Source: Brevundimonas goettingensis (lineage in GTDB: Bacteria > Pseudomonadota > Alphaproteobacteria > Caulobacterales > Caulobacteraceae). From it: DNA of 64,000 bases. Position 1 is the stretch's first letter. Each line of letters starts with the position of its first letter. This document shows positions 31,779 to 56,595 of the stretch, one piece after another. The notes under the pieces are model-generated. The model was not told the origin of the DNA and made no database searches. It saw only the letters and a program-made list of their open reading frames with translations. The stretch is taken from assembly GCF_017487405.1 (NCBI RefSeq), contig NZ_CP062222.1, forward strand, positions 977,001 through 1,041,000. Reading direction: 5' to 3'. Both the position numbers and the translations under genes were made by a program.

Positions 31779-31783
31779 TCGCA

Positions 31784-35262: not shown

Positions 35263-35280
35263 ACGTTCCTGTCCAGTTTG

Positions 35281-35326
35281 CAGGCAAATGCATCGTTTGC
35301 CTGACGTGTTTGCAAGATTTTGCAAA
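35281..35326. promoter_or_regulatory. Two candidate LacI operators in the amylase/receptor gap
   Basis: CAGGCAAA (35281-35288) and TTTGCCTG (35296-35303) form a perfect eight-bp inverted repeat with a seven-base spacer. Just downstream TTTGCAAGATTTTGCAAA (35309-35326) is palindromic at all but one pair. Both lie right upstream of the amylase operon start, and share the GCAA/TTGC core seen at 30.72 kb. Confidence 0.5.
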
Positions 35327-38479: not shown

Positions 38480-39994
38480 ATGGCTGAACCCATAAAGTCC
38501 GTTCTGATCGTCGGCGGCGGCACCGCCGGCTGGATGGCCGCGGCGGCGCTCAATCGCTCGCTCGGCCCCCACTGTCAGGTGTCGCTGGTCGAAAGCGACG
38601 ACATCGGCATTGTCGGGGTGGGGGAGGCGACCGTGCCGCCCATCCGCGACTTCAACGCCTTGATCGACCTCGACGAGGCCGAGTTCATGCGCGAGACCCA
38701 GGCGACGCTGAAGCTGGGCATCGAGTTCGTCGATTGGGGCTCGAAGGGGAACACCTATCTGCATCCCTTCGGCACCTTCGGGCCGGGGCCGACGCTGGGC
38801 GAGTTCCAGCAGTCGTTTCTGGCTCTGAGGGCGGGGGACCGGATCGCCGACGACGTCGAGGCCTATTCGCTGTGCAGCCAGGCCATCAAGGCGGGCAAGG
38901 CGGCGTTCCGCGATCCCGACCCGCGCTCGCCACTGAACGCCCTGTTCACCGCCTATCATTTCGACGCCGGCCTCTATGCCCGCTACCTGAGGAAGGTCTG
39001 CGAGGGGCGAGGCGTGACCCGCATCGAGGGCGAGATCGTCGATGTGGCGCTGCGGCCCGAGGACGGCTTCGTCGATCGGGTGAAGCTCAAGGACGGCCGC
39101 GAACTGACCGCCGACCTCTTCATCGACTGCACCGGCTTCCGCGGCCTGCTGATCGAGGGGGCGCTGAAGGCCGGGTTCGAGGACTGGTCGCACTGGCTGC
39201 CGATGAACCGCGCCTGGGCCGTGCCGTGCGACCGGGTGGCGCCGACCACGCCCTTCACCCGCTCCACGGCCCGCGACGCCGGCTGGCAGTGGCGCATCGC
39301 CCTGCAGCACCGGACCGGCAATGGTCACGTCTACTGCAACGACTTCATGGGCGACGACGAGGCGCGGCAGGTGCTGCTGGACAACCTCGACGGCCCGGCC
39401 CAGGCCGAGCCGCGTCCGCTGCGGTTCACCACGGGACGGCGCAAGCGGTTCTGGGAGAAGAATGTCGTCGCTCTGGGCCTGTCGAGCGGCTTCATCGAGC
39501 CGCTGGAATCGACCAGCATCCATATGGTGCAGTCGGGCATTTATCGCCTGCTGCAGCATTTCCCCGACAGCCGCTTCAGCCCGGTGAACATCGAGACCTA
39601 CAACCGGCGCATCGGCGCCGAGGTCGAGCTGATCCGCGACTTCGTCATCCTGCACTATCATGCGACCCAGAGGGACGACACGCCGTTCTGGCGGCACGTC
39701 GCGGCCATGCCGGTGCCTGATACCCTGAGTCAGCGCGTCGAGGCCTTCCGCAACCGGGGCCTGCTCTATCAGTCGGGCGCGGACGAGTATTTCAGCCAGG
39801 GTTCGTGGATGGCGGTGATGTATGGCCAGGGGATCAAGCCGACGGGGTTCAACCCGTTGTACGGCTTCCAGAACCTGGATCAGGTCCAGGCCGGCTTCGG
39901 CCAGATCGCCGAACGCTGGCGCGAGGTGGCGGCGCGGATGCCGATGCACGACGACTTCCTGAAGGCGCGGGGCATGTGGGCGGGGGCGGAATGA
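38480..39994 (+). CDS. Flavin-dependent tryptophan-type halogenase 1
   Basis: A 504-residue FAD-dependent halogenase-like protein. ATG 38480 has GGGAGAG upstream. The FAD-binding motif is GGGTAGW near the N-terminus. Lys78 (LKLGIEF) matches the catalytic Lys79 of PrnA, and Glu343 (FIEPLES) matches Glu346. The halogenase signature WxWxIP is altered to WQWRIA (residues 269-274), with Ala for Pro. Such proteins brominate or chlorinate indoles in related Brevundimonas (BrvH prefers bromide), but their natural substrate is unknown. No flavin reductase is encoded nearby. It follows the alpha-glucan receptor and overlaps the cupin gene by four bases. Confidence 0.88.
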   Translation: MAEPIKSVLIVGGGTAGWMAAAALNRSLGPHCQVSLVESDDIGIVGVGEATVPPIRDFNALIDLDEAEFMRETQATLKLGIEFVDWGSKGNTYLHPFGTFGPGPTLGEFQQSFLALRAGDRIADDVEAYSLCSQAIKAGKAAFRDPDPRSPLNALFTAYHFDAGLYARYLRKVCEGRGVTRIEGEIVDVALRPEDGFVDRVKLKDGRELTADLFIDCTGFRGLLIEGALKAGFEDWSHWLPMNRAWAVPCDRVAPTTPFTRSTARDAGWQWRIALQHRTGNGHVYCNDFMGDDEARQVLLDNLDGPAQAEPRPLRFTTGRRKRFWEKNVVALGLSSGFIEPLESTSIHMVQSGIYRLLQHFPDSRFSPVNIETYNRRIGAEVELIRDFVILHYHATQRDDTPFWRHVAAMPVPDTLSQRVEAFRNRGLLYQSGADEYFSQGSWMAVMYGQGIKPTGFNPLYGFQNLDQVQAGFGQIAERWREVAARMPMHDDFLKARGMWAGAE

Positions 39995-40995
39995 AGCCGG
40001 TTCCGGTCTTCCGCGGCGTCGACCGCGCCCGGTTCGAGGCCGAGATCGTCCGGGCGGGTCGTCCGGCCGTGCTCAAGGGGCTGATCGCCGACTGGCCGAT
40101 CGTGAAGGCGGCGACCTCGGACGAGGCCTTGGCCGCCTACATCGGCGGCTTCGACAACGGCCGGCCGGTCCGGACCTTCGTCGGGGCGCCGGAGATGGGC
40201 GGGCGGTTCGGCTATTCCCCCGACCTCAAGGGCTTCAACCACGAACAGATGACGGCGCCTCTGGCCGAGCTGCTGCGGCGGCTGCTGGCGGGGCGGGGCG
40301 ATCCGCGCATGCCGCACGTCTATGCCGGGGGCGTGCCCGCGCCGGATGTCCTGCCGGGGCTGGCCGAGGCCAATCCGATGCCGCTGCTGGATCCGGGGAT
40401 GGAGCGGCTGACCTCGCTGTGGATCGGCAACCGGTCGCGGACTGCGGCCCATTGGGACCTGCCGCAGAACCTCGCCTGTGTTGTGCGGGGCGAGCGGCGC
40501 TTCACCCTTTTTCCGCCCGACCAGATCGGCAACCTCTACGTCGGGCCGCTGGACTTCACTTTGGCCGGCCAGCCGATCAGCCTGGTCGACGTCGTCGATC
40601 CCGATTTCGACAAACATCCGAAATTCCGCGAGGCGCTCGAGCATGCCGAGGTCGCGGAGCTGGAGCCCGGCGACGCCCTCTACCTGCCCAGCCTGTGGTG
40701 GCATCATGTTGAGACGCCTGAGGATTTCGGGGCCATGGTCAATCTGTGGTGGCGCGACGGGCCGGCCTATATGACCACGCCGCTGCTGACCCTGTTCCAT
40801 GCCCTGACAACGATCCGCGACCTGCCGGCGGACGAGCGGATGCGCTGGCGCGCCTTCTTCGACCACTACATTTTCCAGACCGGCGACGACCCCGTGGCCC
40901 ATATTCCGGTGGCGGCGAGAGGGGTTCTGGCTCCGATGACGGGCGATCTTCTGGGCCGGATCAGGGCGCTGATCGGTCGCAGCCTGCAACGTTGA
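39991..40995 (+). CDS. Cupin-like/JmjC-type putative Fe(II)/2-oxoglutarate oxygenase
   Basis: A 334-residue protein of the cupin_8 (JmjC-like) family. The ATG at 39991 overlaps the halogenase stop (ATGA), so the two are translationally coupled. The HxD of the facial metal triad is His154-Asp156 (AAHWDLPQN) and the second His is 238 or 239 (WWHHVETP). Segments RPAVLKGLIADWPIVKAAT and YLPSLWWHHVE are typical of the family, which includes asparaginyl hydroxylases such as factor inhibiting HIF. It probably hydroxylates a protein or small molecule. A function with the halogenase is inferred only from the overlap. Confidence 0.85.
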   Translation: MKPVPVFRGVDRARFEAEIVRAGRPAVLKGLIADWPIVKAATSDEALAAYIGGFDNGRPVRTFVGAPEMGGRFGYSPDLKGFNHEQMTAPLAELLRRLLAGRGDPRMPHVYAGGVPAPDVLPGLAEANPMPLLDPGMERLTSLWIGNRSRTAAHWDLPQNLACVVRGERRFTLFPPDQIGNLYVGPLDFTLAGQPISLVDVVDPDFDKHPKFREALEHAEVAELEPGDALYLPSLWWHHVETPEDFGAMVNLWWRDGPAYMTTPLLTLFHALTTIRDLPADERMRWRAFFDHYIFQTGDDPVAHIPVAARGVLAPMTGDLLGRIRALIGRSLQR

Positions 40996-41007
40996 GAGCG
41001 TTCTCAA
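40992..41007. promoter_or_regulatory. LacI-type operator A upstream of the first GH3 gene
   Basis: TTGAGAGCGTTCTCAA is palindromic except for one central pair and has a central CG, as usual for LacI/GalR operators. It overlaps the cupin gene's stop and lies about 115 bases before the GH3 start. The reverse complement of operator B (46470-46485) matches it at 15 of 16 positions. Confidence 0.75.
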
Positions 41008-41121
41008 TTTTTGATGACAAGGGTCGCCGAATGAGCCATCAGTGGGCTCAAGGCTTCCTCGCCGGGACGGTCGCCGCTCAATGAGCGACCGGGGCAGGGG
41101 GCATTGGTCGAGGAAAAATCC

Positions 41122-43668
41122 ATGAAGTCCGCCGTCTCCAGACTGGCCCTCGCGGCCGCGATTCCGCTGCTGAGTCTTTCGGTCCTGAGCCCCGCTTCGG
41201 CGCAATCCAGTGTCGGGGCGGGCCCCACCCCGGCCCAGGTTTCCAGCGCCCGACCCGACTCGACCGCCCATCCCGCCCTGTGGCCCCACGCTGCGTCTCC
41301 GGCGGCGATGAGCGACGCCGAGACCGAAGCCTTCGTCACCGAACTAATGAGCCGGATGACGCTGGAGGAGAAGGTCGGCCAGACCATCCAGGCCGACATC
41401 AGCACCATCACGCCCGAGGATCTGGCTACATATCCGCTGGGCTCGATCCTGGCGGGCGGCAGCTCCGGTCCCTGGGGCGACGACAAGGCGCCGGCGCAGA
41501 AATGGGTCGACCTGTCGCGCGCCTTCCGCGCCGCCGCCGCGGCCCGTCCGGGCGCCAAGGTGCCGCTGATCTACGGCATCGACGCCGTCCACGGCCACAA
41601 CAACGTCCCGGGCGCGACCATCTTCCCGCACAACATCGGCCTGGGCGCCGCGCGCGATCCCGACCTGATCCGCCGCATCGGCGAGGCGACAGCGATGGAG
41701 GTGGCGGTCACCGGCGCCGACTGGACCTTCGGCCCGACCCTGGCCGTGCCCCGCGACGACCGCTGGGGCCGCTCCTACGAAGGCTATTCCGAGGACCCGG
41801 AGGTCCAGCGGTCCTACGCCGGTCCGATGACCTTGGGCCTGCAGGGCGAGCTGTCGGCCGACCATCCGCTGGCGCCCGGCCATATCGCCGGCTCGGCCAA
41901 GCATTTCCTGGCTGACGGCGGCACCTTCGAGGGTGAGGACCAGGGCGATTTCCGGGGGACCGAGCAGGAGCTGATCGACATCCATCTGGGCGGCTATCCG
42001 GCGGCGATCGACGCGGGCGTGCTGTCGGTCATGGCCAGCTTCTCGGGCTGGAACGGGGTCAAGCATTCGGGCAACCACAGCCTGCTCACCGACGTCCTGC
42101 ACGGGCCGTTGGGCTTTGACGGCTTTGTGGTCTCCGACTGGAATGCCCACGGCCAGCTGCCGGGCTGCACCAACGACAGCTGTCCCCTGGCCATCAACGC
42201 CGGGATCGACATGCTGATGGCGCCCGACACCTGGAAGCCGCTCTACGCCAGCACGCTGGAGGCCGCGCGGACCGGGGTGATCCCGCAGGCGCGTCTGGAC
42301 GAGGCCGTGCGCCGCATCCTGCGCGCCAAGGTCAAGGCGGGCGTCTTCCGGCCCGACCGCCCGGTCGAAGGCGACCTGTCGCAACTGGCCTCGCCCGCGC
42401 ACCGGGCCCTCGCCCGCGAGGCGGTGCGTGAGTCGCTGGTCCTGCTCAAGAACGAGGGTTCGGTCCTGCCGATCCGGGCCGGGGCGCGGGTGCTGGTCGC
42501 CGGAACCGCCGCCGACGATATCGGCCAGGCCGCGGGCGGCTGGACCCTGGCCTGGCAGGGCACGGGCAACACCAACGTCGACTTCCCGCAGGGGCAGTCA
42601 ATCTGGGGCGGCATCGAGGAGGCGGTGAAGGCCTCGGGCGGAACTGCAACCCTCAGCGCCGACGGCGCCTTCACCGACAAGCCCGATGTCGCCATCGTCG
42701 TCTTCGGCGAAACCCCCTATGCCGAGTTCCAGGGCGACGTCGACACCCTGGACTTCATCCCGACCGGGCCGCTGGAGACGCTGAAGAAGTTGAAGGCGGC
42801 GGGCATCCCGACCGTGTCGGTCTTCCTCTCGGGCCGTCCGATGTGGACCAATCCCGAGATCAATGCGTCGGACGCCTTCGTCGCCGCCTGGCTGCCGGGC
42901 ACCGAGGGCGGCGGCGTCGCTGACGTCCTGATTGGCGATGCCGCAGGCAAGCCGCGCAACGATTTCCACGGGACCCTGTCGTTCAGCTGGCCCAAGAACG
43001 CCCGGGGTGAGCTCCTGAACCACGGCCAGCCGGGCTATGACCCGCAGTTCGCCTATGGCTATGGCCTGACCTACGCCCATGGCGCCTCGGTCGGGGCCCT
43101 GTCGGAGGAAAGCGGCGTCGAAGCGGCGACCTCCAACGTGGACCACTATTTCGTCGATGGCCGCTATGTCGCGCCCTGGGGCCTGATGCTCCGCGACGCG
43201 GGGGGCCAGAACAAGCCGGGCACGGTCAAGGTCGCCTCCAGCCCGCGCGGCGGGGTCTCGGTGCGGCCCATCGACGATCTGGCCCAGGAAAGCGGACAGC
43301 AGTTCGCCTTCTCCGGCAACGGTCCGGCCCAGGCCTTTATCGAGGGCACGCCCATCGATCTGACCCGTCAGGCCAACGGCGAACTGGCGCTCAGCTTCCG
43401 CTATCGCATCGACGCGGCGCCGCAGGGGGCGGTCGGTCTGTCGGTCGGGCAGGGCAGGGTGGACGTCACCGAACTGTTCCGCTCGGCCCCGGTGCGCGAA
43501 TGGCGAACGCTGAAGGTGCGGCTGTCCTGCCTGCGCGACGCGGGCGCGGACATCGCCCATGTCGATGTGCCGTTCCGACTGGACACCGATGCGGCCTTCA
43601 CGGTCTCGGTGTCGGAAATCGAACTGGCGCCGAACGCCAACGACACCGTCTGTCCCGCGAGACAATAG
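41122..43668 (+). CDS. Exported GH3 beta-glucosidase (exo-glucanase type)
   Basis: An 848-residue GH3 enzyme. ATG 41122 has GAGGA seven bases upstream. The signal peptide ends SPASAQ. The N-terminal (beta/alpha)8 domain has LIYGIDAVHGHNN, EDPEVQRSYAGPM and the nucleophile Asp339 in GFVVSDWNAHG. The (alpha/beta)6 sandwich follows (VRESLVLLKNEGSVLP; YGYGLTYAHG near the end). A C-terminal beta-sandwich of about 170 residues (galactose-binding-like, as in the barley ExoI-type/ExoP enzymes) completes it. It removes glucose from beta-glucan oligomers in the periplasm. Its expression is probably controlled at operator A. Confidence 0.9.
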   Translation: MKSAVSRLALAAAIPLLSLSVLSPASAQSSVGAGPTPAQVSSARPDSTAHPALWPHAASPAAMSDAETEAFVTELMSRMTLEEKVGQTIQADISTITPEDLATYPLGSILAGGSSGPWGDDKAPAQKWVDLSRAFRAAAAARPGAKVPLIYGIDAVHGHNNVPGATIFPHNIGLGAARDPDLIRRIGEATAMEVAVTGADWTFGPTLAVPRDDRWGRSYEGYSEDPEVQRSYAGPMTLGLQGELSADHPLAPGHIAGSAKHFLADGGTFEGEDQGDFRGTEQELIDIHLGGYPAAIDAGVLSVMASFSGWNGVKHSGNHSLLTDVLHGPLGFDGFVVSDWNAHGQLPGCTNDSCPLAINAGIDMLMAPDTWKPLYASTLEAARTGVIPQARLDEAVRRILRAKVKAGVFRPDRPVEGDLSQLASPAHRALAREAVRESLVLLKNEGSVLPIRAGARVLVAGTAADDIGQAAGGWTLAWQGTGNTNVDFPQGQSIWGGIEEAVKASGGTATLSADGAFTDKPDVAIVVFGETPYAEFQGDVDTLDFIPTGPLETLKKLKAAGIPTVSVFLSGRPMWTNPEINASDAFVAAWLPGTEGGGVADVLIGDAAGKPRNDFHGTLSFSWPKNARGELLNHGQPGYDPQFAYGYGLTYAHGASVGALSEESGVEAATSNVDHYFVDGRYVAPWGLMLRDAGGQNKPGTVKVASSPRGGVSVRPIDDLAQESGQQFAFSGNGPAQAFIEGTPIDLTRQANGELALSFRYRIDAAPQGAVGLSVGQGRVDVTELFRSAPVREWRTLKVRLSCLRDAGADIAHVDVPFRLDTDAAFTVSVSEIELAPNANDTVCPARQ

Positions 43669-43738
43669 GGCGGCTGAACTGCTAAGCTGAACGACGGCGA
43701 GACTCGCACAAGACGGGCCGCCGAGGGGGAAGAAAAAG

Positions 43739-45016
43739 ATGACCGCATCCGTCCACGCGACCGAACTGCTGCTGTTCTCGATACTGGTTCAGCTGATCAT
43801 CATGATCGGCGCGGCCCGGCTGCTTAATCTGGCCTTCCGCAGGATGGGCCAGCCCGGGGTGATCGGCGAGATCGTCGCCGGTCTGCTGCTCGGGCCGTCG
43901 CTGTTCGGGCATTTCTTCCCCGAGCTGTCGGTCAGTCTGTTCGGCGCCAAGGCGGCCCAGCCGATCGTGATCCTGAGCCAGATCGGCCTGATCCTGCTGA
44001 TGTTCCAGATCGGGTCGGAGTTCGAGTTCGGTCATCTGAAGACGCCAAAGAACCGGCGGGCGATGGTCTGGGTCTCCCTGCTGTCGATCACCGTGCCCTT
44101 CGGCCTGGGCTTCGCCATCGGTCAGATGTCCCAGCCGGTGCTGGCGCCGGGAATCAACGCCCTGGTCTACAGCCTGTTCTGCGGCGTGGCCCTGGCCATC
44201 ACCGCCGTGCCGATCCTGGGCCGGATCCTGCGCGAGTTCGGCCTGACCCGCGACGAGATGGGCGTCGTCGCCATCTCCTCGGCCGCGGTCAACGACGTCG
44301 TCGGCTGGATACTGCTGGCGTTGATCTCGGCCTATGCGGCGTCCCGACTTTCGACCGCCCATGTCGGGATCCAGCTGGGCGGGCTGGCCGGTCTGGGGCT
44401 GGTGCTGTGGTTTGTGCTGCGGCCGGCCGTCGACTGGCTGCTGAAGCGGTTCCCTATCGTGGACGGCCAGATTCCGCCGACCCTGATGGCCATCGTCATC
44501 ATCCTGACCTTCGCCTTGGGCATCACGACCTACAAGCTGGGCATCTTCGCCATCTTCGGGGGCTTCGCGGCGGGCCTTTTGTTCCACAAGCACGAGGACT
44601 TCGTCGTCGCCTGGCGTCAGCAGGTGGGCCAGTTCGTGCTGGTCTTCTTCCTGCCGATCTTCTTCACCTTCACCGGTTTGCGGACCAATCTGCTGGGTCT
44701 GGGTCTCGGCGATCTGGGCTGGCTGGGCGTGATCCTGGCGGCGGCGATCCTCGGCAAGATCATTCCGGTCTATTTCGGCGCCCGGATCGCGGGCTTCGAT
44801 CATCCCCGGTCGATGGTGCTGGGCACGCTGATGAACACCCGGGCCCTGATGGAGCTGATCGTGCTAAACATCGGCTACGACATGGGCTTCCTGCCGCAGA
44901 AGGTCTTCACCATGCTGGTCATCATGGCCGTGGTGACCACGGTCATGACCGGGCCTCTGCTCAAATGGCTGCTGCCGAAGACCGGACATGTCGCGCCGAG
45001 GCAGGTCGAGGCCTGA
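43739..45016 (+). CDS. CPA-family cation:proton antiporter (Kef/NhaP-like)
   Basis: A 425-residue membrane protein with about 12 transmembrane segments. The N-terminal GQPGVIGEIVAGLLLGPSLFG is a signature of the CPA2 sodium/proton exchanger domain, and the acidic ion site is in SSAAVNDVVGW. No C-terminal TrkA-type NAD-binding domain is present, so it is the short form. It may export sodium or potassium in exchange for protons. It lies 70 bases after the GH3 gene and may be co-transcribed; its role within a beta-glucan locus is not obvious. Confidence 0.88.
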   Translation: MTASVHATELLLFSILVQLIIMIGAARLLNLAFRRMGQPGVIGEIVAGLLLGPSLFGHFFPELSVSLFGAKAAQPIVILSQIGLILLMFQIGSEFEFGHLKTPKNRRAMVWVSLLSITVPFGLGFAIGQMSQPVLAPGINALVYSLFCGVALAITAVPILGRILREFGLTRDEMGVVAISSAAVNDVVGWILLALISAYAASRLSTAHVGIQLGGLAGLGLVLWFVLRPAVDWLLKRFPIVDGQIPPTLMAIVIILTFALGITTYKLGIFAIFGGFAAGLLFHKHEDFVVAWRQQVGQFVLVFFLPIFFTFTGLRTNLLGLGLGDLGWLGVILAAAILGKIIPVYFGARIAGFDHPRSMVLGTLMNTRALMELIVLNIGYDMGFLPQKVFTMLVIMAVVTTVMTGPLLKWLLPKTGHVAPRQVEA

Positions 45017-45121
45017 CCGTACCGAAAGTGAGCCGCTCGAAAGACCGTTGAACCGCTTGCGAAAGCCGCGCCTCTGGCTGACACATGGGCGAATGCATCG
45101 GACCACCGGAGCCACAGCCTG

Positions 45122-46360
45122 ATGTCCGATTCCGCCCCGGGGGAGGCGAAGGCGGGCGAGGTCCCATCCCGGGGGCTGGGCTTCCTGCTGCTCTACGCCC
45201 TGGCCTGGGGCGGAGGCGTCATCGCCTATGTGCCGCTGCTGACCCTGATCCTGCCGGTCAAGATCGAGGCCATCGCTCCTGACGACAAGGTCGCCCTGCT
45301 CAGCCTGACCACCCTGCTGGGCGCCGTGGTGGCCAGCGCCATGAACGTCCTGATCGGCATGGCCAGCGACCATACGGTGATGCGTGAGCGGGGGCGCAGG
45401 CCCTGGGTGGCTCTGGGGCTGGTCCTGACCCTGATCTCCTATGCCGTGCTGCACGCCGCGACGACGCCGGTCGCCCTGGTGATGGGGGTGATGCTGTTCC
45501 AGGCCGCGCTCAACCTGATGCTGGCCCCGCTCAGCGCCGTGCCGGCGGATGAGATTCCCGACACCCAGAAGGGCCTCGTCGGGGGGCTGATGGGGGCGGT
45601 CTATACCTTCGGCGCCCTGGCGGGGATGGTGGTCACCGCCTCGCCCTGGTTCTCGGAGCGGATGCAGCTGACCATTGCGGGCGTGCTGGTCTCGGCGGGC
45701 GTGCTGCCCTTCCTGCTGCTGAGCCGCAAGCGGGGGCCCATCGTCCCGGCCTCGGCGCCGATGATCCGCGCCGGGAGCCGCCGCAAGCACAACCTGATCC
45801 GCATCTGGATCGCCCGGCTGCTGGTGCAGATCTCGGGCAGCATCTTCTTCGCCTATCTGCTCTTCTATTTCGAGACGGTGGACCGGACGGGGCTGGCCTT
45901 CGCCGGTGGCGACATCACCAGCCAGGTGGCCTGGCTGGCGGGGTCGGTGACGGTGGTGCTGGCGCCTCTGGCGATCGCCACCGGCCGGGTGTCCGATGCG
46001 GTGCGGTCGAGAAAGCCCTTCCTGGTGGTCACCGCCGCCATGGTCACGGTCGGCCTCCTGACCATGGCGCTGGCGCCGCAATGGGGGCCGGCGGCGATGG
46101 GCTATGTGCTGTTCGCCTGTGGGTGCGCCCTGTTCCTCGCCCTTCAGAGCGCCTACGCCATGCAACTCCTGATCACGCCCGAGCATCGCGGGCGAGACAT
46201 GGGGGTGCTCAATCTGACGAACACCATCCCGGCCCTTATCGCGCCGTCGATGGCCTATCTGATGGCGGGGGAGGGGGACTTCACCCTGCTTCTTCTGGTG
46301 CTGGCGGGACTCACCGGCGTCGCCCTGATCCTCTGTCTTCAGGTTCGCGACGAGGCCTGA
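45122..46360 (+). CDS. MFS sugar transporter (beta-glucoside locus)
   Basis: A 412-residue MFS transporter with 12 predicted helices. The N-terminal half has GMASDHTVMRERGRRPWVALGLVL, the loop 2-3 motif, and ALNLMLAPLSAVPADEIPDTQKGLVGGLMGA, and the C-terminal half has ITPEHRGRDMGVLNLTNTIPALIAPSM. It resembles the SLC45-like group of the alpha-glucan locus but is shorter and not closely similar. Standing between two GH3 genes, it most likely imports glucose, cellobiose or other beta-glucosides after periplasmic cutting. CGGAG lies about 10 bases upstream of the ATG. Confidence 0.78.
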   Translation: MSDSAPGEAKAGEVPSRGLGFLLLYALAWGGGVIAYVPLLTLILPVKIEAIAPDDKVALLSLTTLLGAVVASAMNVLIGMASDHTVMRERGRRPWVALGLVLTLISYAVLHAATTPVALVMGVMLFQAALNLMLAPLSAVPADEIPDTQKGLVGGLMGAVYTFGALAGMVVTASPWFSERMQLTIAGVLVSAGVLPFLLLSRKRGPIVPASAPMIRAGSRRKHNLIRIWIARLLVQISGSIFFAYLLFYFETVDRTGLAFAGGDITSQVAWLAGSVTVVLAPLAIATGRVSDAVRSRKPFLVVTAAMVTVGLLTMALAPQWGPAAMGYVLFACGCALFLALQSAYAMQLLITPEHRGRDMGVLNLTNTIPALIAPSMAYLMAGEGDFTLLLLVLAGLTGVALILCLQVRDEA

Positions 46361-46778: not shown

Positions 46779-49091
46779 ATGCAGAGTATCGGTCAGCGTC
46801 GTTTGCGTCACAGTGTGTCGATCAGCGTTATCGCGCTGGTCGCGACGCAGATGTTTGGCGCGCCCGCATGGGCGGCCGAGGGCGTTCCAGCGCCCGCGAC
46901 GACTGCCGTCTCCGCCTCGGCCCAGGCCCCGGGCCGGACCCCCGCCCAGACGCGCGCCGCCGGTCTGGTCGCCCAGATGACGCGCGAGGAGAAGCTGTCT
47001 CTGGTGCACGGCTATTTCCCGCCCTGGGCCGACCGCACCCCCGGAGCCCCGGTCGCCGAGATGATCCCTTCGGCCGGCTATGTGCCCGGCATCCCGCGCC
47101 TGGGCATTCCCGCCCTGCGTGAAAGCGACGCCAGCCTGGGTGTCGCCAACCAAGTCGAGCAGCGCAAGGGCGACGTCGCCACGGCCCTGCCGTCGAGTCT
47201 TGCCACCGCCGCCACCTTCGACCCCGAGATCGCCCACGCCGGCGGCGTCATGATCGGCTCGGAAGCCCGGTCCAAGACCTTCAACGTCCTGCTGGCCGGC
47301 GGGGTCAACCTGACCCGTGACCCGTGGAACGGCCGCAATTTCGAATATCTGGGCGAGGATCCGCTGCTGGCCGGGACGTTGGCCGGCGCGCATATCATGG
47401 GAGTCCAGTCGAACAATATCGTTTCCACGATCAAGCATTTCGCCTTCAACAGCCAGGAAACCGGCCGGATGATCATGGACGCCCGTCTCGACGAGGCGTC
47501 CCTGCGTGAAAGCGACCTGCTGGCCTTCCAGATCGCCATCGAACGCGGCCATCCGGGCTCGGTGATGTGCGCCTACAACCGCATCAACGGCGATTACGCC
47601 TGCGAGAACGACTTCCTGCTCAACCAGGTGCTCAAGCGCGACTGGAACTATCCGGGCTGGGTCATGTCCGACTGGGGCGCGGTCCATTCGACCGAGAAGG
47701 CCGCGATCAACGGGCTGGACCAGGCGTCCGGTCAGGAACTGGACCGCGCGCTCTTCTTCGCCGCCCCACTTGCCGAGGCCGTGGCGGCCGGACGGGTGCC
47801 TGAAGCTCGGCTGGACGACATGGTCACGCGCATCCTGGTCGGGATGATCGAGACCGGCGCCATGGACCATCCGGTGTCGACGACGGCGGAAACGCCCGAC
47901 TACGCCGCCCACGCCGAGGTCGCCCAGCGTGCGGCCGAGGCCGGGATCGTCCTGCTCAAGAACGACGCCGGCGCCCTGCCTCTGATGGCGACGGCGAAGC
48001 GGATCGTGCTGATCGGCGGCCATGCCGACGTCGGCGTCCTGTCGGGCGGCGGCTCGTCACAGGTGCGGTCGGTCGGCGGGGCTCCGGTCGAGATTCCGCT
48101 GACCTCGGGCGCGGCGTCCTCGTTCGCCCGCGTCACCTGGCATGCTTCCTCGCCGCTCAACGCGATCAAGGCGACGGCGCCCGACGCGGAAGTCGTCTTC
48201 GTCTCCGGAACCGACCATGCCGCCGCCGCCCGGGCCGCACGTGGCGCCGACGCCGTCGTGGTCTTCGCCACCCAGTGGACGACCGAGGCCCAGGATGTCG
48301 AGACCCTGTCTCTTCCCGATGATCAGGACGCCCTGATCGCCGCCGTCGCCGCCGCCAATCCGCACACCACCGTGGTGCTGGAGACGGGCGGGCCGGTGCT
48401 GATGCCCTGGATCGACGCCGTCCCGGCCGTGGTCCAGGCCTGGTACCCGGGCCAGAGGGGCGGCGAGGCCATCGCCCGCATCCTGTTCGGTCAGGTCAAT
48501 CCGTCCGGCCGCCTGCCCATCACCTTCCCGCGCAGCGCCGACCAGCCGCCGCGCCCGACCGTGCCGGGTCTGGAGGCCATGAAGGCGCATGACGAGGCCT
48601 CGAACGCCGGTTCGGGTTCGTCGATCGTCTTCGCGCCCTTCCCGGTGGAATACCCGGAGGGCTCCGACGTCGGCTATCGCTGGTACGAGCGCGAGGGCAG
48701 GGCGCCCCTGTTCCCGTTCGGCCATGGCCTCAGCTACACGAGCTTCCAGTACGGCGACCTGCGCGTCGAGGGGGGCTCCGGCCTGACGGTCAGCTTCAAC
48801 GTCACCAACACCGGCGACCGTGAGGGGACCGACGTGCCCCAGCTCTATGTCGCCGCCGACGGTTCGGGTCACGCGCGCCGCCTGGCCGGCTGGTCGCGGG
48901 TGACGCTGAAGCCGGGCGAGAGCCACCGCGTCACCATCACCGCCGAGCCCCGCATCCTGGCCGAGTACGACACCTCGACGCCCGGCTGGCGGATCGCGGC
49001 GGGACCCTATCGCGTCCACATCGGACACGACGCCCTGGATAACGAACTCGGGGGAGAGGCGACCTTGTCTTCACAGACACTGAAGCCCTGA
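46779..49091 (+). CDS. Exported GH3 beta-glucosidase
   Basis: A 770-residue GH3 enzyme with a signal peptide ending APAWAA. The barrel domain has GIPRLGIPALRESDASLGVAN, the substrate-binding NGRNFEYLGEDPLLAG and KHFAFNSQETGR, and nucleophile Asp298 in WVMSDWGAVHS. The second domain has EAGIVLLKNDAGALPL, and the acid Glu is in the C-terminal part near TTEAQDVETLSL. A C-terminal fibronectin III-like domain (NTGDREGTDVPQLYVA) is typical of beta-glucosidases. It would cleave cellobiose or other beta-glucosides. It is one of two different GH3 forms in this locus and follows operator B. Confidence 0.92.
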   Translation: MQSIGQRRLRHSVSISVIALVATQMFGAPAWAAEGVPAPATTAVSASAQAPGRTPAQTRAAGLVAQMTREEKLSLVHGYFPPWADRTPGAPVAEMIPSAGYVPGIPRLGIPALRESDASLGVANQVEQRKGDVATALPSSLATAATFDPEIAHAGGVMIGSEARSKTFNVLLAGGVNLTRDPWNGRNFEYLGEDPLLAGTLAGAHIMGVQSNNIVSTIKHFAFNSQETGRMIMDARLDEASLRESDLLAFQIAIERGHPGSVMCAYNRINGDYACENDFLLNQVLKRDWNYPGWVMSDWGAVHSTEKAAINGLDQASGQELDRALFFAAPLAEAVAAGRVPEARLDDMVTRILVGMIETGAMDHPVSTTAETPDYAAHAEVAQRAAEAGIVLLKNDAGALPLMATAKRIVLIGGHADVGVLSGGGSSQVRSVGGAPVEIPLTSGAASSFARVTWHASSPLNAIKATAPDAEVVFVSGTDHAAAARAARGADAVVVFATQWTTEAQDVETLSLPDDQDALIAAVAAANPHTTVVLETGGPVLMPWIDAVPAVVQAWYPGQRGGEAIARILFGQVNPSGRLPITFPRSADQPPRPTVPGLEAMKAHDEASNAGSGSSIVFAPFPVEYPEGSDVGYRWYEREGRAPLFPFGHGLSYTSFQYGDLRVEGGSGLTVSFNVTNTGDREGTDVPQLYVAADGSGHARRLAGWSRVTLKPGESHRVTITAEPRILAEYDTSTPGWRIAAGPYRVHIGHDALDNELGGEATLSSQTLKP

Positions 49092-49153
49092 CGCCGGAAA
49101 CACTACGGACCAAGCCGCACAGAGAGGCGGCGCACACGGAGGAGGAGACGACC

Positions 49154-52100
49154 ATGAGACTGCAAAAACGATCCATTCTGACGGCCTTGCTGGCCAGTAC
49201 GGCCCTGGCCTCGCCGGCCTTCGCCCAATCGTCCGGGCAGACCGATCCGGAGGCGACGACCGTCGACGAGATTGTCGTAACCGGTATCCGCGGCTCGCAG
49301 GAGCAGGCGATCAATATCAAGCGCAACACCACCGCCGTGGTCGATGCGATTTCGGCGGAAGACATCGGCAAGCTGCCCGACGTCACGGTCGCCGACGCCC
49401 TGCAGCGGATCGGGGGCGTCCAGATCCGGCGCACGGCCGGCGAGGGCGCCACGGTCAATATTCGCGGCCTGCCCCAGGTCGTGACCCTGATGAACGGCGA
49501 ACAATATCTGACGCCGGGCAACCTCGGCACCGCCCAGCCCGATCTGAACGACATTCCCGCCCAGCTGATGAACTCGCTGGTCGTGTACAAGTCGATGGAT
49601 GTGCGCAACGCCCTGTCGGGCATCTCGGGCACGATCGACCTGCGCACCCAGCGGCCCCTCAACTTCAAGGAGGGCCTGACCACCGCCCTGGCGCCGGAAT
49701 ACGCCACCGGCGAGGACACGCGTCAGGACGACTATCTGTTCAACGCCCTGCTCAACTGGCGCAACGACCGCTTCGGCGTCATGGTCGCCGCAGTCCAGCA
49801 GGAAGCCAACCTGGGCAACAATTACTCCGGCATTTCCCAGGGCGTGTTCGGTAACAACGACTGGGGCGGCACGGACAACAACTGGATCTCGCCGCACGGC
49901 TACGACACCTTCCACCGCGAGGTCGAGCGCAAGCGGACCGGCGTCAACGCCGCCTTCACCTGGCAGATCGACGACGGCTTCGAACTGACCGGCGAGTTCT
50001 TCTATACCAAGCTGGAAGAGCATGACCGCGCCGCCGGCCTGAACATCTCCAATCGCTGGAACGGCCTGACCTGGACGACCCCGACGGCCTTCACGACCAC
50101 GGGCGTCAACGGCTCCAACGGCAACCCGTGGCTGGACGTGACCGAGTACGATCTCGACGTCTGGTGGATGAACTCCTTCACGGTGAACCGCACCAAGAAC
50201 AACGACTCCAAGAACTTCAATCTCGAGCTGAACTACGACAAGGGCGGTCCCTTCACCTTCTCGGCTCGCGCCATTCACGCCGAGGCCTCGCTGCTCAGCA
50301 TGAACGGCCAGGTCCAGGGCGATCTGTCCAACTGGCAGTATGCGCCTGACCGGTCCTTCACCCTGTTCCGCGATACGGCCGACCGGACGCGCGGGCCCTT
50401 CTATTCGGCGGCGATCGCCGCCCAGTATCCGGCCTCGCAATACTCCAACGGAATCGTCGGATCGGCGGGCGGTCGCTACATCAACCCGAACCCGCTGGGG
50501 ATCGGCAACGACCCGCAGATCCACCTGAACATCGGTGGCGGCCAGACGGTCTGGAGCAACTTCAACAACCCGATCGTCGGCGGCCTGGGCAATGTGCCCC
50601 TGGCCCAGTACATGGCCAACCAGGACAGCTACGCCGTCGCGGCCTATTCGTCGGAAGGCAACCAGCGTAACCAGTCCGACCTCAGCGCCGTGCGCATGGA
50701 CGGTAGTTACGAGTTCCAGGCCGAGCCGCTGCTGGGCTTCGTCAACAAGATCGACGTCGGCCTGCGTCACTCGGATCGCCAGGTCTCGATCGAAAACTTC
50801 CACCTGTTCTCGGACGTCAACGGCTGTTCGGTTCAGTGGAAGGCGATCGACGTCGTCATGAACCAGAACCAGTGCTCGGCCGGCGAGCAGGTGCCGAACC
50901 CGGCGTTCAACCCGGCCCTGCCGGTCAGCACCACCAACCCGACGACGGTGTTCCAGGGCTACACGGTCAACCGGCCGACCAAGCTCTATACGAACAACAA
51001 CACCTACTTCCTGGACAACTACGGCTCGATCACCAGCGGCCTGCCGGGCGTCTGGGTCGTGGATCCGCGCGACTTCGACGATATCGTGTCCTTCCAGCAG
51101 CGCGTCTTCGGCAGCGCCTATGAAGTCATCATTCCGGGCAACACCTATGACGTCGATCTGTACGAGGACAGCGGCTATCTGAACGCCAACATCGGCTTCG
51201 GAAACCTGCACGGCGACATCGGCGTCCGCGCCATCCGCACCCAGTTGCACGTGCGTCAGAACCAGACCGGCGACACCCGCAACTACGGTGACACCAACCT
51301 GGATGTCGGCGACACCATCTCCAAGCGGGCCTACACCGACTATCTGCCGTCGGTGAACATGGTCTACGACTTCACCGACCGGCTGAAGCTGCACGCGGCC
51401 TACAACAAGACCATGATCCCGCTGGATCTGGGCGCCTACGGCGGCGGCGTCACCATCTCGACGGCCGACTCGGCCGGCCCGACCGCGGCCGATCCGACCG
51501 CTCCGCCGCTCGGCATCCGCCGCGTCACCGGCGCGACCTTCGCGGGCAGCCCCGACCTGAACCCCTGGCGGTCGAACAACTACGACCTGACCCTGGAATA
51601 CTACATGGGCCGGGCGACGATGTTCAGCATCGCCCTGTTCAAACTGGAGATCGAGAGCTTCGTGACCCGGGCCACGGTTCCGGGCGGCCGGTTCCCGGAC
51701 GGCGACGGCATCATTCGCCGCGACGTGCCGGTCAACATGCCGGTGCAGGGCGAGGGCGGTTCGCTGCAGGGCGTCGAACTGGGGGCCAAGCTGGCCGTCA
51801 GCGACATCTGGGACACCGACAGCTTCATCCGGGACTTCGGCTTCGACGGCAGTTTCACCTATTCGGACAGCTCCCAGAACGCCCAGAACCTGTCCGGCGA
51901 GGACCTGCCGTTCCCGGATAACTCCGAGTACTCGGTCAACGCCGCGGTCTGGTACCAGAGCGACAAGCTGCAGGCGCGGGTGGCCTACAACTACCGCACG
52001 CCTCGGCTGCAGAGCACCTTCGGCGCCATCCCGATCTACCAGGACACGGCCCAGTATGTGGACGTCAACGTCACCTATAACCTGACCGAGAACGTCACCC

Positions 52101-52234
52101 TCTACGCCAACGGCTCCAACGTTCTGGGCGAGATCGAGGAATACTACCTCGAGTTCGAGAAGGGGGCGGAGCAGTTCCACTCCCGCAACGAGTTCGAACC
52201 CCGCTGGTCGATCGGCGCGCGGGCCAAGTTCTAA
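49154..52234 (+). CDS. TonB-dependent receptor of the beta-glucoside locus
   Basis: A 1026-residue outer-membrane receptor. GGAGGAG lies ahead of the ATG. The signal peptide ends SPAFAQ, the TonB box region is DEIVVTGIRGS, and the plug has AVVDAISAEDIGKLPDVTVADALQRIGGV and GATVNIRGLPQV. The barrel ends WSIGARAKF with a terminal Phe. The family is the long Xanthomonas/Caulobacter receptor type; no STN domain is present. The context of two GH3 enzymes and a sugar transporter suggests uptake of beta-glucan oligomers. A strong terminator follows at 52253, and halogenases 2 and 3 come next. Confidence 0.92.
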   Translation: MRLQKRSILTALLASTALASPAFAQSSGQTDPEATTVDEIVVTGIRGSQEQAINIKRNTTAVVDAISAEDIGKLPDVTVADALQRIGGVQIRRTAGEGATVNIRGLPQVVTLMNGEQYLTPGNLGTAQPDLNDIPAQLMNSLVVYKSMDVRNALSGISGTIDLRTQRPLNFKEGLTTALAPEYATGEDTRQDDYLFNALLNWRNDRFGVMVAAVQQEANLGNNYSGISQGVFGNNDWGGTDNNWISPHGYDTFHREVERKRTGVNAAFTWQIDDGFELTGEFFYTKLEEHDRAAGLNISNRWNGLTWTTPTAFTTTGVNGSNGNPWLDVTEYDLDVWWMNSFTVNRTKNNDSKNFNLELNYDKGGPFTFSARAIHAEASLLSMNGQVQGDLSNWQYAPDRSFTLFRDTADRTRGPFYSAAIAAQYPASQYSNGIVGSAGGRYINPNPLGIGNDPQIHLNIGGGQTVWSNFNNPIVGGLGNVPLAQYMANQDSYAVAAYSSEGNQRNQSDLSAVRMDGSYEFQAEPLLGFVNKIDVGLRHSDRQVSIENFHLFSDVNGCSVQWKAIDVVMNQNQCSAGEQVPNPAFNPALPVSTTNPTTVFQGYTVNRPTKLYTNNNTYFLDNYGSITSGLPGVWVVDPRDFDDIVSFQQRVFGSAYEVIIPGNTYDVDLYEDSGYLNANIGFGNLHGDIGVRAIRTQLHVRQNQTGDTRNYGDTNLDVGDTISKRAYTDYLPSVNMVYDFTDRLKLHAAYNKTMIPLDLGAYGGGVTISTADSAGPTAADPTAPPLGIRRVTGATFAGSPDLNPWRSNNYDLTLEYYMGRATMFSIALFKLEIESFVTRATVPGGRFPDGDGIIRRDVPVNMPVQGEGGSLQGVELGAKLAVSDIWDTDSFIRDFGFDGSFTYSDSSQNAQNLSGEDLPFPDNSEYSVNAAVWYQSDKLQARVAYNYRTPRLQSTFGAIPIYQDTAQYVDVNVTYNLTENVTLYANGSNVLGEIEEYYLEFEKGAEQFHSRNEFEPRWSIGARAKF

Positions 52235-52252
52235 CCACCACCCCTGGACCCT

Positions 52253-52292
52253 GGCCGACGACGACGTTCGCGTTGTCGTCGGCCGATTTTTT
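52253..52292 (+). terminator. Rho-independent terminator after the second receptor
   Basis: A 14-bp stem (GGCCGACGACGACG at 52253 with 52271-52284, one G-T wobble) capped by a TTCG loop, followed by GATTTTTT. It cuts the receptor transcript before the halogenase pair. Confidence 0.9.
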
Positions 52293-52341
52293 CGCGTAAT
52301 CCTCCAGGATCAGCTTGCGTCAGACAGGCGAGGAAACGGCC

Positions 52342-53880
52342 ATGAACACAGCGTCTGGCGACAGACTTTCCCCGAACGCCATCCGTCGGGTGGTGATCGT
52401 CGGCGGCGGCACGGCGGGCTGGATGACGGCCGCGGCCCTGAGCCAGCACCTGCGGCACACCGGCGTGCGCATCACCGTGGTCGAGTCGTCCGAGATCGGC
52501 ACGATCGGCGTCGGCGAAGCGACCATTCCGACCATCCGCCGCTTCTACGCACAGCTCGGCATGACCGACGCCGAGGTGATGACGGCGACCCAGGCCAGCT
52601 GCAAGCTCGGCATCCGCTTCACCGGCTGGAGTGGCGCCGGGTCGGACTTCATCCACCCCTTCGGCCTGTACGGACAGGACCTGCGCGGGGTGGGTTTCCA
52701 CCACTACTGGGCCAAGCAGCGCCAGACGGGCGACCAGACGCCGCTGGCGGCCTATTCCCTGGGCGCAGCCCTGGCCTTCGGCGGCAAATTCATCGAGCCG
52801 TCGCCGACGCCGCCGTCGTCCCTGTCGGTGTTCGACTGGGCCCTGCATCTGGACGCCTCCCTGTTCGCCCAGCACTTGCGTAGGTACGCCGAGGCCAGCG
52901 GCGTCGAGCGCATCGACGCCCGCATCGTTGATGTCCAGCTGCGCCCCGAAGATGGGTTCGTGCGGGCCGTGACCCTGGGCGACGGGCGCGAGGTCGAGGG
53001 CGATCTGTTCGTCGACTGCTCGGGCTTCCGCGGTCTGCTGATCGGCGAGGCCCTCGGCTCGGCCTATGAGGACTGGGGTCAGTGGCTGGCCTGCGACGCC
53101 GCCTTCGCCGTGCAGAGCGAGAACGGCCCGGGCATGGAGCCCCATCCCTATACCCAGGTCACCGCCCATGCGGCGGGCTGGCAGTGGGGCATTCCGCTGC
53201 GCCACCGCGCCGGCAACGGCCTGGTCTTCTCCAGCGCCCATATGACCGACCAGCAGGCGCTGGACGCCCTGATGCCCAATCTGATGGGCAAGCCCCTGAT
53301 GGAGCCGCGCCGTATCGGCTTCCGTCCCGGCCGCCGCGACCGGGCATGGGTCAAGAACTGCGTCTCCATCGGCCTGTCCGCGGGCTTCCTGGAACCGCTG
53401 GAAAGCACCAGCATCGCCCTGATCGAGAACGGCATCGAGCGGCTCAAGTCCCTGTTCCCGGACAAGACCTTCGCCCCCTCGATCATCGACGAGTTCAACG
53501 ACCAGTCGGCGCGCGAGATGGAGCGCACCCGCGACTTCATCATCCTGCACTACTGGCTGAACGGCCGCGACGAACCCTTCTGGCAGGAGCGGCGCGAGGC
53601 GGCCATTCCCGACACCCTGGCCCGCAAGGTCGAGCTCTGGAAGGCGAGGGGACAGTTCGTCCGCTATCGCTGGGAGATGTTCCACCCGGCCAGCTGGCTG
53701 GCCATCTACGACGGCTTCGGCGTCCTGCCCGAACAGCTGGATCCCGCGGTCGAGGGGCTGGACCCCGGCCAGCTCGCCAACAGCCTTCACCAGATGAAGG
53801 CGTCGGTCGCCGAGACCGTCGCCCGCACCCCGAGCCACGCCGCCTTCCTGGCGCGGCTCGACCGACCTGTAGCCGCTTGA
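52342..53880 (+). CDS. Flavin-dependent tryptophan-type halogenase 2
   Basis: A 512-residue halogenase with GAGGA seven bases before ATG 52342. GGGTAGWMTAAAL binds FAD. Lys88 (CKLGIRF), Trp280 and Trp282 in WQWGIP, and Glu354 (FLEPLES) cover the catalytic set, with the Pro of the signature intact. It lacks the C-terminal LHYxATQR pattern of halogenase 1 (here LHYWLNGRDEPFW), so it belongs to a different subgroup. It is followed 11 bases later by halogenase 3, a likely operon. The substrate is unknown, and no flavin reductase is nearby. Confidence 0.9.
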   Translation: MNTASGDRLSPNAIRRVVIVGGGTAGWMTAAALSQHLRHTGVRITVVESSEIGTIGVGEATIPTIRRFYAQLGMTDAEVMTATQASCKLGIRFTGWSGAGSDFIHPFGLYGQDLRGVGFHHYWAKQRQTGDQTPLAAYSLGAALAFGGKFIEPSPTPPSSLSVFDWALHLDASLFAQHLRRYAEASGVERIDARIVDVQLRPEDGFVRAVTLGDGREVEGDLFVDCSGFRGLLIGEALGSAYEDWGQWLACDAAFAVQSENGPGMEPHPYTQVTAHAAGWQWGIPLRHRAGNGLVFSSAHMTDQQALDALMPNLMGKPLMEPRRIGFRPGRRDRAWVKNCVSIGLSAGFLEPLESTSIALIENGIERLKSLFPDKTFAPSIIDEFNDQSAREMERTRDFIILHYWLNGRDEPFWQERREAAIPDTLARKVELWKARGQFVRYRWEMFHPASWLAIYDGFGVLPEQLDPAVEGLDPGQLANSLHQMKASVAETVARTPSHAAFLARLDRPVAA

Positions 53881-53891
53881 GAGACACGCTG

Positions 53892-55421
53892 ATGGCCAAC
53901 AATCCCCACCGCCCGATCCGCAAGATCTGCATCGTCGGCGGCGGCACCGCCGGCTGGATGGCCGCGGCCCTGATGTCCGAGCACTTCAAGGGAACGATGG
54001 GCGCCATCGAGGTGGTCGAGTCCGACGACATTTCGACCGTCGGGGTGGGTGAATCGACCGTTCCGCCCCTGCTCGAGCTGATCGCCAAGCTGGGTATCAA
54101 CGAACAGGAATTCATCCGCGAGACCCAGGGCACTTTCAAGCTGGGCATCGACTTCCGCGACTGGCGGGTGAAGGGCGAGAACTATTTCCACCCGTTCGGC
54201 GATCTCGGCGCGCGGGTCGATCTGTCCGACTTCTACCAGCTGTGGCTCAAGGCCAGGGCCAACGGCTATCAGGGGCCGCTGCAGGACTTCGCCCCCGCCG
54301 CCGTGATGGCGCGCGAGCGCAAATTCATGCTGCCGTACAAGGCTCCGAACACCCCGATCGCCAGCGCCAGCTATGCGCTGCATTTCGATGCCAAGCTGGT
54401 GGCCCGCTATCTGCGCAAATACGCCGAGGCGCGGGGCGTGAAGCGCACCGAGGGCATGGTTCAGGACGTCGCCCTGCTGCCGAACGGCTTTGTCGAGAAG
54501 CTGATCCTCAAGGACGGCCGGACCATCGACGCGGACTTCTTCATCGACTGCTCGGGCTTCCGCAGCCTGCTGATCGGCAAGGCGATGCAGACCGGTTTCC
54601 ACGACTGGTCCGACTGGCTGCTGTGCGACCGGGCCGTGGCCCTGCAGATCGAGAACGAGACCCCGCCCATGCCGGTCACCCGGGCTCAGGCCATGGACTG
54701 CGGCTGGCGCTGGGTCATCCCGCTGCAGCACCGCAGCGGCACGGGCTATGTCTTCTCCAGCAAGCATCTGAGCGATGACGAGGCGACCGCGGCCCTGCTG
54801 GCCCAGTGCGAGGGCAAGCCCGTGACCAAGCCGTGGATCGTGCCGTTCAAGACGGGCGTGCGGGAGAAGCTGTGGGAGAAGAACGTTCTCGGTATCGGCC
54901 TGGCGGGCGGCTTCATCGAGCCGCTGGAATCCACCGCGATCCATCTGATCTATCGCGGCATGGACTTCTTCTTCCGCTTCCTGCCCGACCGCGACTGCGA
55001 TCCGGCCCTGGCCGCCGAGTACAATCGCCGCATGATCGCCGACTACGAGGAGATCCGCGACTTCGTGATCCTGCACTACTGCACGACCCAGAGGGAAGAC
55101 ACGCCCTTCTGGCGCGAGGTGAAGGCCATGGAGCCGCCGGCCTCCCTGAAGCGCAAGATCGAGCTGTTCCGCGTCAACGGGACGCGAGCGGAGGGCCTGG
55201 ACGAGCTGTTCCGCGCCGTCAGCTGGCAGTCGGTGATGGAGGGGATGGGCGTCCATCCGCGCGGCTATCACCCGCTGGTCGACCGCATTCCGTTCGAGAA
55301 CGTGCCCGAGCAGCTGGATCACGCGCGGGAAATGCTCCGCCGCGTCGTCGCCGACCTGCCCACCCAGGAAGAGTTCATCGCCCGGCACTGTGCGGCGGTG
55401 ACGCCGGAAATGGCGGCCTGA
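53892..55421 (+). CDS. Flavin-dependent tryptophan-type halogenase 3
   Basis: A 509-residue halogenase starting with ATG 53892, 11 bases after halogenase 2. It has GGGTAGWMAAAL for FAD, Lys83 (FKLGIDF), the intact WRWVIP signature with Trp272 and Trp274, and Glu346 (FIEPLES). The tail TQREDTPFWREV is close to halogenase 1 (TQRDDTPFWRHV). It is more similar to halogenase 1 than to 2 in these motifs. Two different halogenases coupled to one another imply sequential or heteromeric halogenation of a ligand, but that is inference. Confidence 0.9.
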   Translation: MANNPHRPIRKICIVGGGTAGWMAAALMSEHFKGTMGAIEVVESDDISTVGVGESTVPPLLELIAKLGINEQEFIRETQGTFKLGIDFRDWRVKGENYFHPFGDLGARVDLSDFYQLWLKARANGYQGPLQDFAPAAVMARERKFMLPYKAPNTPIASASYALHFDAKLVARYLRKYAEARGVKRTEGMVQDVALLPNGFVEKLILKDGRTIDADFFIDCSGFRSLLIGKAMQTGFHDWSDWLLCDRAVALQIENETPPMPVTRAQAMDCGWRWVIPLQHRSGTGYVFSSKHLSDDEATAALLAQCEGKPVTKPWIVPFKTGVREKLWEKNVLGIGLAGGFIEPLESTAIHLIYRGMDFFFRFLPDRDCDPALAAEYNRRMIADYEEIRDFVILHYCTTQREDTPFWREVKAMEPPASLKRKIELFRVNGTRAEGLDELFRAVSWQSVMEGMGVHPRGYHPLVDRIPFENVPEQLDHAREMLRRVVADLPTQEEFIARHCAAVTPEMAA

Positions 55422-56552: not shown

Positions 56553-56595
56553 GGCCCTACACCGACGTCAAAACAAGACTCGGAGGCGACCCCCA

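Follow-up and report, generated by a model that had tools for sequence, protein, structure and literature searches.

We analyzed a 64,000-nucleotide stretch of the Brevundimonas goettingensis genome (RefSeq assembly GCF_017487405.1, contig NZ_CP062222.1, positions 977,001 to 1,041,000; hereafter the window), in which three genes for flavin-dependent halogenases, halA, halB and halC, adjoin two genes for TonB-dependent receptors (TBDRs), TBDR_A and TBDR_B. The halogenases belong to a widespread BrvH-type group that is partnered with sugar-type TBDRs, and the pairing of receptor and halogenase extends beyond these two loci and beyond the Caulobacterales. The recurrence of this pairing suggests that the halogenases chemically finish receptors and do not take part in natural-product synthesis. 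In the reading that we favor, and to which we give somewhat less than an even chance, receptor and halogenase form a receptor-tailoring cassette in which the receptor polypeptide itself is the substrate of the halogenase.

In the first cassette, TBDR_A (35548..38337 of the window, + strand), a MalA-type receptor with a Plug domain, is followed by halA (38480..39994, +). In the second, TBDR_B (49154..52234, +) is followed by halB (52342..53880, +) and halC (53892..55421, +). Both receptors score above the curated cut-off of 310 bits for TIGR01782 (TonB-Xanth-Caul), TBDR_A with 593.5 bits and TBDR_B with 468.5 bits. The scanned frames of halA, halB and halC match PF04820 with 619, 597 and 612 bits, respectively; the three proteins are 41-45% identical to one another, and all contain the glycines for flavin adenine dinucleotide (FAD), the catalytic Lys and the Glu of the EPLEST motif, while halA has WxWxIA where the others have WxWxIP (Ala for Pro). 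By profile and FAD motif, they are PF04820 flavin-dependent halogenases with predicted halogenating activity. With the FAD motif near the N-terminus and no signal peptide seen by eye, they should be cytosolic. The gene for a Cupin_8/FIH-JmjC-like protein (39988..40995, +; PF13621, 235.9 bits) overlaps the 3' end of halA by 7 nucleotides, counting from its likely ATG at 39988. Thus, the original prediction, which placed three halogenases with intact catalytic Lys and Glu and an overlapping cupin gene beside two receptors, was correct in this respect (PF04820 three times, PF13621, TIGR01782 twice). It had also noted a kinship to BrvH, which turns out to be closer than stated, in that the nearest solved structure of halB is BrvH itself (6frl, 874 bits; next structure, 446 bits). 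For halA, the nearest structures are 9luq, 6y1w and 6frl, and for halC 6frl (443 bits); these two enzymes match the BrvH-type structures (6frl, 9luq, 6y1w) with 424-487 bits and tryptophan halogenases with ~301 bits or less. The nearest match of the halB locus (96%) is from Brevundimonas, as are many of the further matches.

A search of the whole genome, a single contig of 3.98 Mb, for PF04820 gave exactly three matches, all inside the window and on the + strand. The same genome has 56 Plug-domain matches and 11 intact TIGR01782 receptors above the cut-off, and all three halogenases adjoin just two of these 11; the placement of halogenases beside receptors in this genome is more than chance. 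An additional TIGR01782 receptor gene, at C1:3671259-3672200, was matched as two pieces, one with an internal TAG, and is likely decayed.

The original prediction had named beforehand the count that would bear on its generality, namely how often halogenases adjoin TBDRs in the Caulobacterales. We compared 83 halogenase regions from 60 genomes of the order with 40 control regions from the same genomes, the controls lying on long contigs and being shifted by a fixed step (~60-100 kb) instead of being randomized. Enzymes were divided on our own profile, with thresholds set by eye, into class I (>600 bits), class II (300-600 bits) and degenerate (≤300 bits); open reading frames of <300 amino acids were excluded from the counts, and receptor distances are confined to the fetched regions of ~10-19 kb. 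At least 37 of the 60 genomes carry PF04820 above the cut-off. A TBDR is present in 61 of 65 class I regions, compared with 7 of 40 control regions (Fisher p = 4e-16), and in 6 of 18 regions with class II enzymes only, giving 67 of 83 halogenase regions over all classes. Among the 96 class I enzymes, a receptor lies within 500 nucleotides for 46, within 2.5 kb for 69 and within the region for 90. Because the nearest receptor is on the same strand for only 54 of the 96, many pairs are not operons. The expected enrichment is therefore borne out for class I, while class II is less linked and may have a different role. Class II regions often lack a TBDR (for instance L078, L097, L110, L111, L136, L144, L145, L151 and L192-L194).

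The pairing is also met outside the order. A scan with halB identified 36 loci in Brevundimonas, Asticcacaulis, Sphingomonas, Hephaestia, Azospirillum, Niveispirillum and Gammaproteobacteria, among others, and the order TBDR_B-halB-halC on one strand is kept at all 36, with broken reading frames in L035. Among PLSDB plasmids, tblastn with halA matched 27 records, 25 of them proteobacterial. Twenty of the 25 were read (H37, H40, H42, H43 and H51 were left out, as was, outside the 25, the Nocardiopsis record H56), and at all 20 loci a TBDR adjoins the halogenase directly or with no more than a further halogenase or companion gene in between; the TBDR calls rest on annotation in 17 cases and on our own profiles in three unannotated records, one of which (L262) has a ~0.9-kb gap between TBDR and halogenase. 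One plasmid locus carries the set TBDR-SapC-cupin-halogenase.

The window itself contains two sugar loci. Divergent from TBDR_A are genes for glycoside hydrolases (GHs) of families GH97, GH13 and GH13 (28585..35325, -; Pfam scan), and the alpha-glucan locus proposed in the original prediction is thus real. Between the two cassettes lie two GH3 genes, one 3' of the cupin gene (41104..43668, +; PF00933, PF01915, PF18559) and one 5' of TBDR_B (46779..49091, +; PF00933, PF01915, PF14310), together with one gene of the sodium/hydrogen-exchanger family and one gene of the major facilitator superfamily (MFS). Across loci, the enzymes beside the pair vary and include GH32 with amylosucrase, GH3, alpha-L-fucosidase, GH43, GH68, GH95, GH16, GH2, and amylases with GH97; even at the loci of the halB relatives, GH3 is variable in place and strand and absent from 7 of 36 regions. 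Changing sugar enzymes next to a constant receptor-halogenase pair point to the receptor protein, or to something always handled by the receptor, and not to one glycan. The distance matrices agree with this. Those of halogenase and receptor are correlated at 0.76 (49 class I pairs), and in shared subsets the halogenase-receptor correlation exceeds that of the halogenase with GH3 (0.88 vs 0.56, n=24), GH13 (0.65 vs 0.19, n=15), MFS (0.86 vs 0.70, n=17) and LacI (0.84 vs 0.68, n=29). In other words, the halogenase follows the receptor, on top of some shared locus history. Of the earlier suggestion that halogenation acts on a receptor-linked or glycan-derived ligand, the receptor link is supported while the glycan ligand is weakened, because the sugar enzymes vary and the halogenase tracks the receptor over the GHs. 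Likewise, the repeated association at two sugar loci is real but was drawn too narrowly, as other taxa and other partners (SapC, DUF6445, 2OG-FeII_Oxy_5) take part.

These data also bear on the possibility that halogenases are passengers of sugar loci, functionally unconnected to the receptor. Such hitchhiking would fit with the occurrence of the loci on plasmids, with a receptor-LacI divergence that is correlated as well (0.79), and with the presence, among the matches listed, of the receptor without a halogenase in some genomes. However, the receptor stays as the constant partner while the GH genes change, the pairing persists in same-strand and opposite-strand arrangements, conservation of the catalytic Lys and Glu is strict (170 of 170 class I enzymes), and the companion genes described below occur near linked receptors and not near unlinked ones. 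We consider hitchhiking improbable.

The companion genes are of the oxygenase type in part. We compared 146 full-length receptors, 94 with a nearby halogenase and 52 picked for the absence of one, for companions within 4.5 kb (a family member interrupted by an internal stop and a partial sequence were excluded). Linked and unlinked receptors differ in Cupin_8 (18 vs 0), SapC (14 vs 0) and DUF6445 (6 vs 0), and the 83 halogenase regions differ in the same manner from the 40 control regions (18 vs 0, 14 vs 0 and 11 vs 1, respectively). By these counts, most linked receptors are without any of the three. Beside the two cassettes of the window, SapC, DUF6445 and 2OG-FeII_Oxy_5 were not seen. Ten DUF6445 sequences inspected by eye have H-x-D, a later H, and R, the pattern of 2-oxoglutarate (2OG)-Fe(II) oxygenases. 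The nearest solved relatives of the window Cupin_8 protein are the protein hydroxylases FIH, JMJD5 and JMJD7, and the iron ligands (HxD and the distal H) are aligned; the match is only ~70 bits, and the 2OG-binding Lys of FIH, in GYKRC, is replaced by Arg, so that co-substrate binding may differ from that in FIH.

A similar combination is present in phages. Relatives of halA were found in 81 phage records, mostly cyanophages, and six of the 81, picked from 30 listed records, were read. At five of the six loci (L248, L250, L252, L253 and L254; cyanophage and pelagiphage), the region includes a 2OG-Fe(II) or phytanoyl-type oxygenase, and four of these five are near tail-fibre or structural-protein genes; in phage S-B64, neither an oxygenase nor a tail-fibre or structural gene is annotated near the halogenase. 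PF13759 (2OG-FeII_Oxy_5) matches all five oxygenases scanned, four from phages and one from a Catenovulum receptor locus with amylosucrase. Because halogenase and oxygenase thus lie beside genes for large surface proteins in two unrelated settings, the phage loci favor a protein substrate, by way of a parallel and not as proof. In a broader version that we hold only tentatively, flavin halogenases and 2OG-Fe(II) oxygenases would together tailor the surfaces of sugar receptors and cyanophage tail fibres; halogenated and/or hydroxylated aromatics in outer loops of TBDRs (for example at QWKAIDVV, see below) would tune sugar binding or hide the receptor from phages, and BrvH-type enzymes would have such tailoring as their native role. 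Two unannotated faecal records listed as 'Bacteriophage sp.', MT837902.1 and MT835646.1, encode halogenases that share ~52% identity with halA, far more than the cyanophage enzymes do, and may be bacterial DNA.

The presence of halA relatives in phages could also be read as a sign of defence or detoxification, with the enzymes producing hypohalous acid or halogenated compounds and being tied to sugar uptake by shared regulation alone. Flavin halogenases form hypohalous acid, as is discussed in PMC11337851. Yet, the halogenases keep receptor-specific lineages and not a shared defence context, and no defence genes were noticed in the loci read, although no search with a defence library was made. 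This explanation appears very unlikely to us.

Returning to the receptor polypeptide as substrate, the halogenase would draw on O2, halide and FAD reduced by a general reductase of the cell, and its target would be the side chain of an aromatic residue, most simply Trp, in the partner receptor while that protein is still in the cytosol and not yet exported. A 2OG-Fe(II)-type partner, where present, would hydroxylate the same receptor protein. The changed residues would sit in surface loops of the receptor and tune ligand binding or exposure. The receptor polypeptide is favored because it is the sole large aromatic-containing partner at nearly every class I locus and because it transits the cytosol; the conserved pairing, the correlated divergence, the intact catalytic residues and the protein-hydroxylase-type companions at a minority of loci lend support. 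According to the structural studies, BrvH-type enzymes do not have the loops by which Trp halogenases close their active site, and peptide substrates were proposed for the open active sites of BrvH and Xcc4156 (PMC5945002, PMC7336383). No flavin reductase was found among the window proteins scanned, which cover neither the whole window nor the genome, and no biosynthetic genes were found among the scanned neighbors of halA, halB and halC, which are not every open reading frame of the window. The absence of both, as claimed in the original prediction, thus holds for the proteins scanned.

Several observations weigh against the receptor as substrate. As described in PMC5945002, BrvH attacks C3 of free indole, a position that is blocked in a Trp residue; because of this, the reaction would have to take place elsewhere on the ring or on a different aromatic residue. 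No modified receptor peptide has been seen. For 6 of the 96 class I and 12 of the 27 class II enzymes, there is no TBDR in the fetched region, and DUF6445, present in one of the 40 control regions, is not exclusive to halogenase regions. Among the matches listed, a halogenase is missing from 15 of the 82 Brevundimonas-type genomes that carry TBDR_A. In an alignment of the 146 receptors, of which 73 (30 linked, 43 unlinked) were kept after dropping those >55% identical, no Trp column is common to all linked receptors, which rejects a universal Trp target, and the total number of Trp residues per receptor is similar (13.0 linked vs 12.1 unlinked). Clade-specific Trp columns differ (0.33-0.40 linked vs 0.02-0.07 unlinked), and each receptor type has its own Trp loop (LTDPxGWGQ-like, QWKAIDVV and NWGxxSxxW-like); yet the GWG loop of the TBDR_A type is kept in two receptors without an adjacent halogenase, one of them from a genome that has no PF04820 among the matches listed. 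Because of these two receptors, we claim no modification site.

In the window, QWKAIDVV, residues 561-568 of TBDR_B (codons 50834..50857, +), is no more than a candidate site. In an alignment of TBDR_B with 27 orthologues (50-93% identical), it is invariant in 28 of 28 sequences and is the best-conserved 8-residue stretch outside the plug; VQGDLSNW (second), GLNISNRW (fourth) and FGNNDWGG (seventh) also contain Trp. In a structural model with a mean pLDDT of 76 and a poorly modelled plug, residue 561 lies between strands 530-555 and 665-682, in a long segment where the only strands are short; in our reading of the strand order, this segment would be an outer loop. The conserved Trp residues of TBDR_B may simply bind sugar. 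A rise in Trp with the number of halogenases (means of 11.8, 14.9, 17 and 18.2 for one, two, three and four halogenases; n=38, 64, 2 and 5) was set aside on account of small numbers, the dominance of one receptor family and uncorrected relatedness.

Receptor and halogenase can also be followed apart from each other. Over 131 genomes of the genus, and among the matches listed, 67 have halogenase and TBDR_A, 15 TBDR_A alone, 7 the halogenase alone and 42 neither (Fisher p = 1.5e-14, with no correction for shared ancestry; the identity of some TBDR_A matches is just 51-57%). In 13 genomes that were checked for TIGR01782 receptors only, the halogenase is within ~2.2 kb of one in six and has none nearby in seven. 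In four of these seven (L241-L244), a halA orthologue (72-73% identical) stands alone, and its gene surroundings are of at least two kinds; within ~1.5 kb of it, neither of the receptors, nor the cupin, nor GH3 gave a match. TBDR_A is present elsewhere in all four genomes, which we count in favor of the receptor as substrate. Receptors without halogenase and stand-alone halA orthologues together indicate that the receptor does not strictly depend on the halogenase and that adjacency is not required.

Gene pairing alone cannot separate a receptor from its ligand, and it could be that the halogenases act on a small aromatic (a ligand, a signal or a surface compound) that is taken up by or released near the receptor, the link being a shared ligand. 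BrvH brominates free indole in vitro (PMC5945002), and TBDRs are reported to carry aromatic compounds (PMC6874591). By contrast, enzymes for many sugars accompany the paired receptors, making a common aromatic ligand hard to name, and biosynthetic genes were not seen among the scanned neighbors; moreover, the activity of BrvH on indole is weak (2.5 mU/mg), and its authors doubt that indole is the native substrate (PMC5945002). We regard a small aromatic as possible but rather unlikely.

Some arrays contain enzymes that seem to have lost catalysis. Each of six tandem halogenase arrays (L080, L085, L086, L092, L127 and L141) has a degenerate member, one place from the receptor-proximal halogenase, with the catalytic Lys changed to Ser, Arg or Val, and an array on a Niveispirillum plasmid has a similar low-scoring second member. 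Such a degenerate halogenase may be a pseudo-enzyme that serves as a partner or recognition subunit. In the window, a gene for homogentisate 1,2-dioxygenase (HgmA_N and HgmA_C; 56497-57891, +) lies ~1 kb 3' of halC.

If the receptor is the substrate, the cassette would represent a new type of post-translational modification acting on receptors of the outer membrane. In many aquatic and plant-associated bacteria, this would influence nutrient uptake and perhaps the adsorption of phages, and it would hint at what cyanophage halogenases do. As biocatalysts, BrvH and related enzymes are under study, with the native substrate given as unknown (PMC5945002, PMC7336383), and the link to receptors offers a concrete candidate. 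The enzymes, the receptors and the loci of the carbohydrate utilization (CUT) type are each already known. For the receptor-halogenase-oxygenase cassette as a system, no description was found in the open-access literature, most subscription papers being outside the search. Trp-halogenase-like genes have reportedly been noted in N-acetylglucosamine loci of Xanthomonas and Shewanella.

Among known systems, BrvH of Brevundimonas BAL3 is the one nearest to halB. A second halogenase gene, 42.7% identical, adjoins brvH (PMC5945002), and halC may be its counterpart; a TonB receptor is not mentioned in the available part of the same report. Xcc4156 and other group-C halogenases of Xanthomonas (6y1w) match halA, halB and halC with 424-470 bits and share the open substrate site (PMC7336383). 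Tryptophan halogenases of the RebH/PrnA/PyrH type have the fold family and the catalytic residues in common with the three enzymes but score lower than the BrvH type. MibH, a lanthipeptide halogenase (5uao), provides the precedent for a flavin halogenase that acts on Trp in a peptide; however, it matches with only 191-207 bits, and the present enzymes are paired with a large receptor of the outer membrane. In a natural-product cluster such as that on a Streptomyces plasmid record, an adenylation-domain gene, MbtH and a flavin reductase lie beside the halogenase and there is no receptor, a setting unlike that of the scanned neighbors in the window. Finally, the CUT loci of Xanthomonas and aquatic bacteria, as described in the main text of PMC1790865, likewise combine a TBDR with regulator, transporter and carbohydrate enzymes, whereas the word halogenase does not occur in that text.

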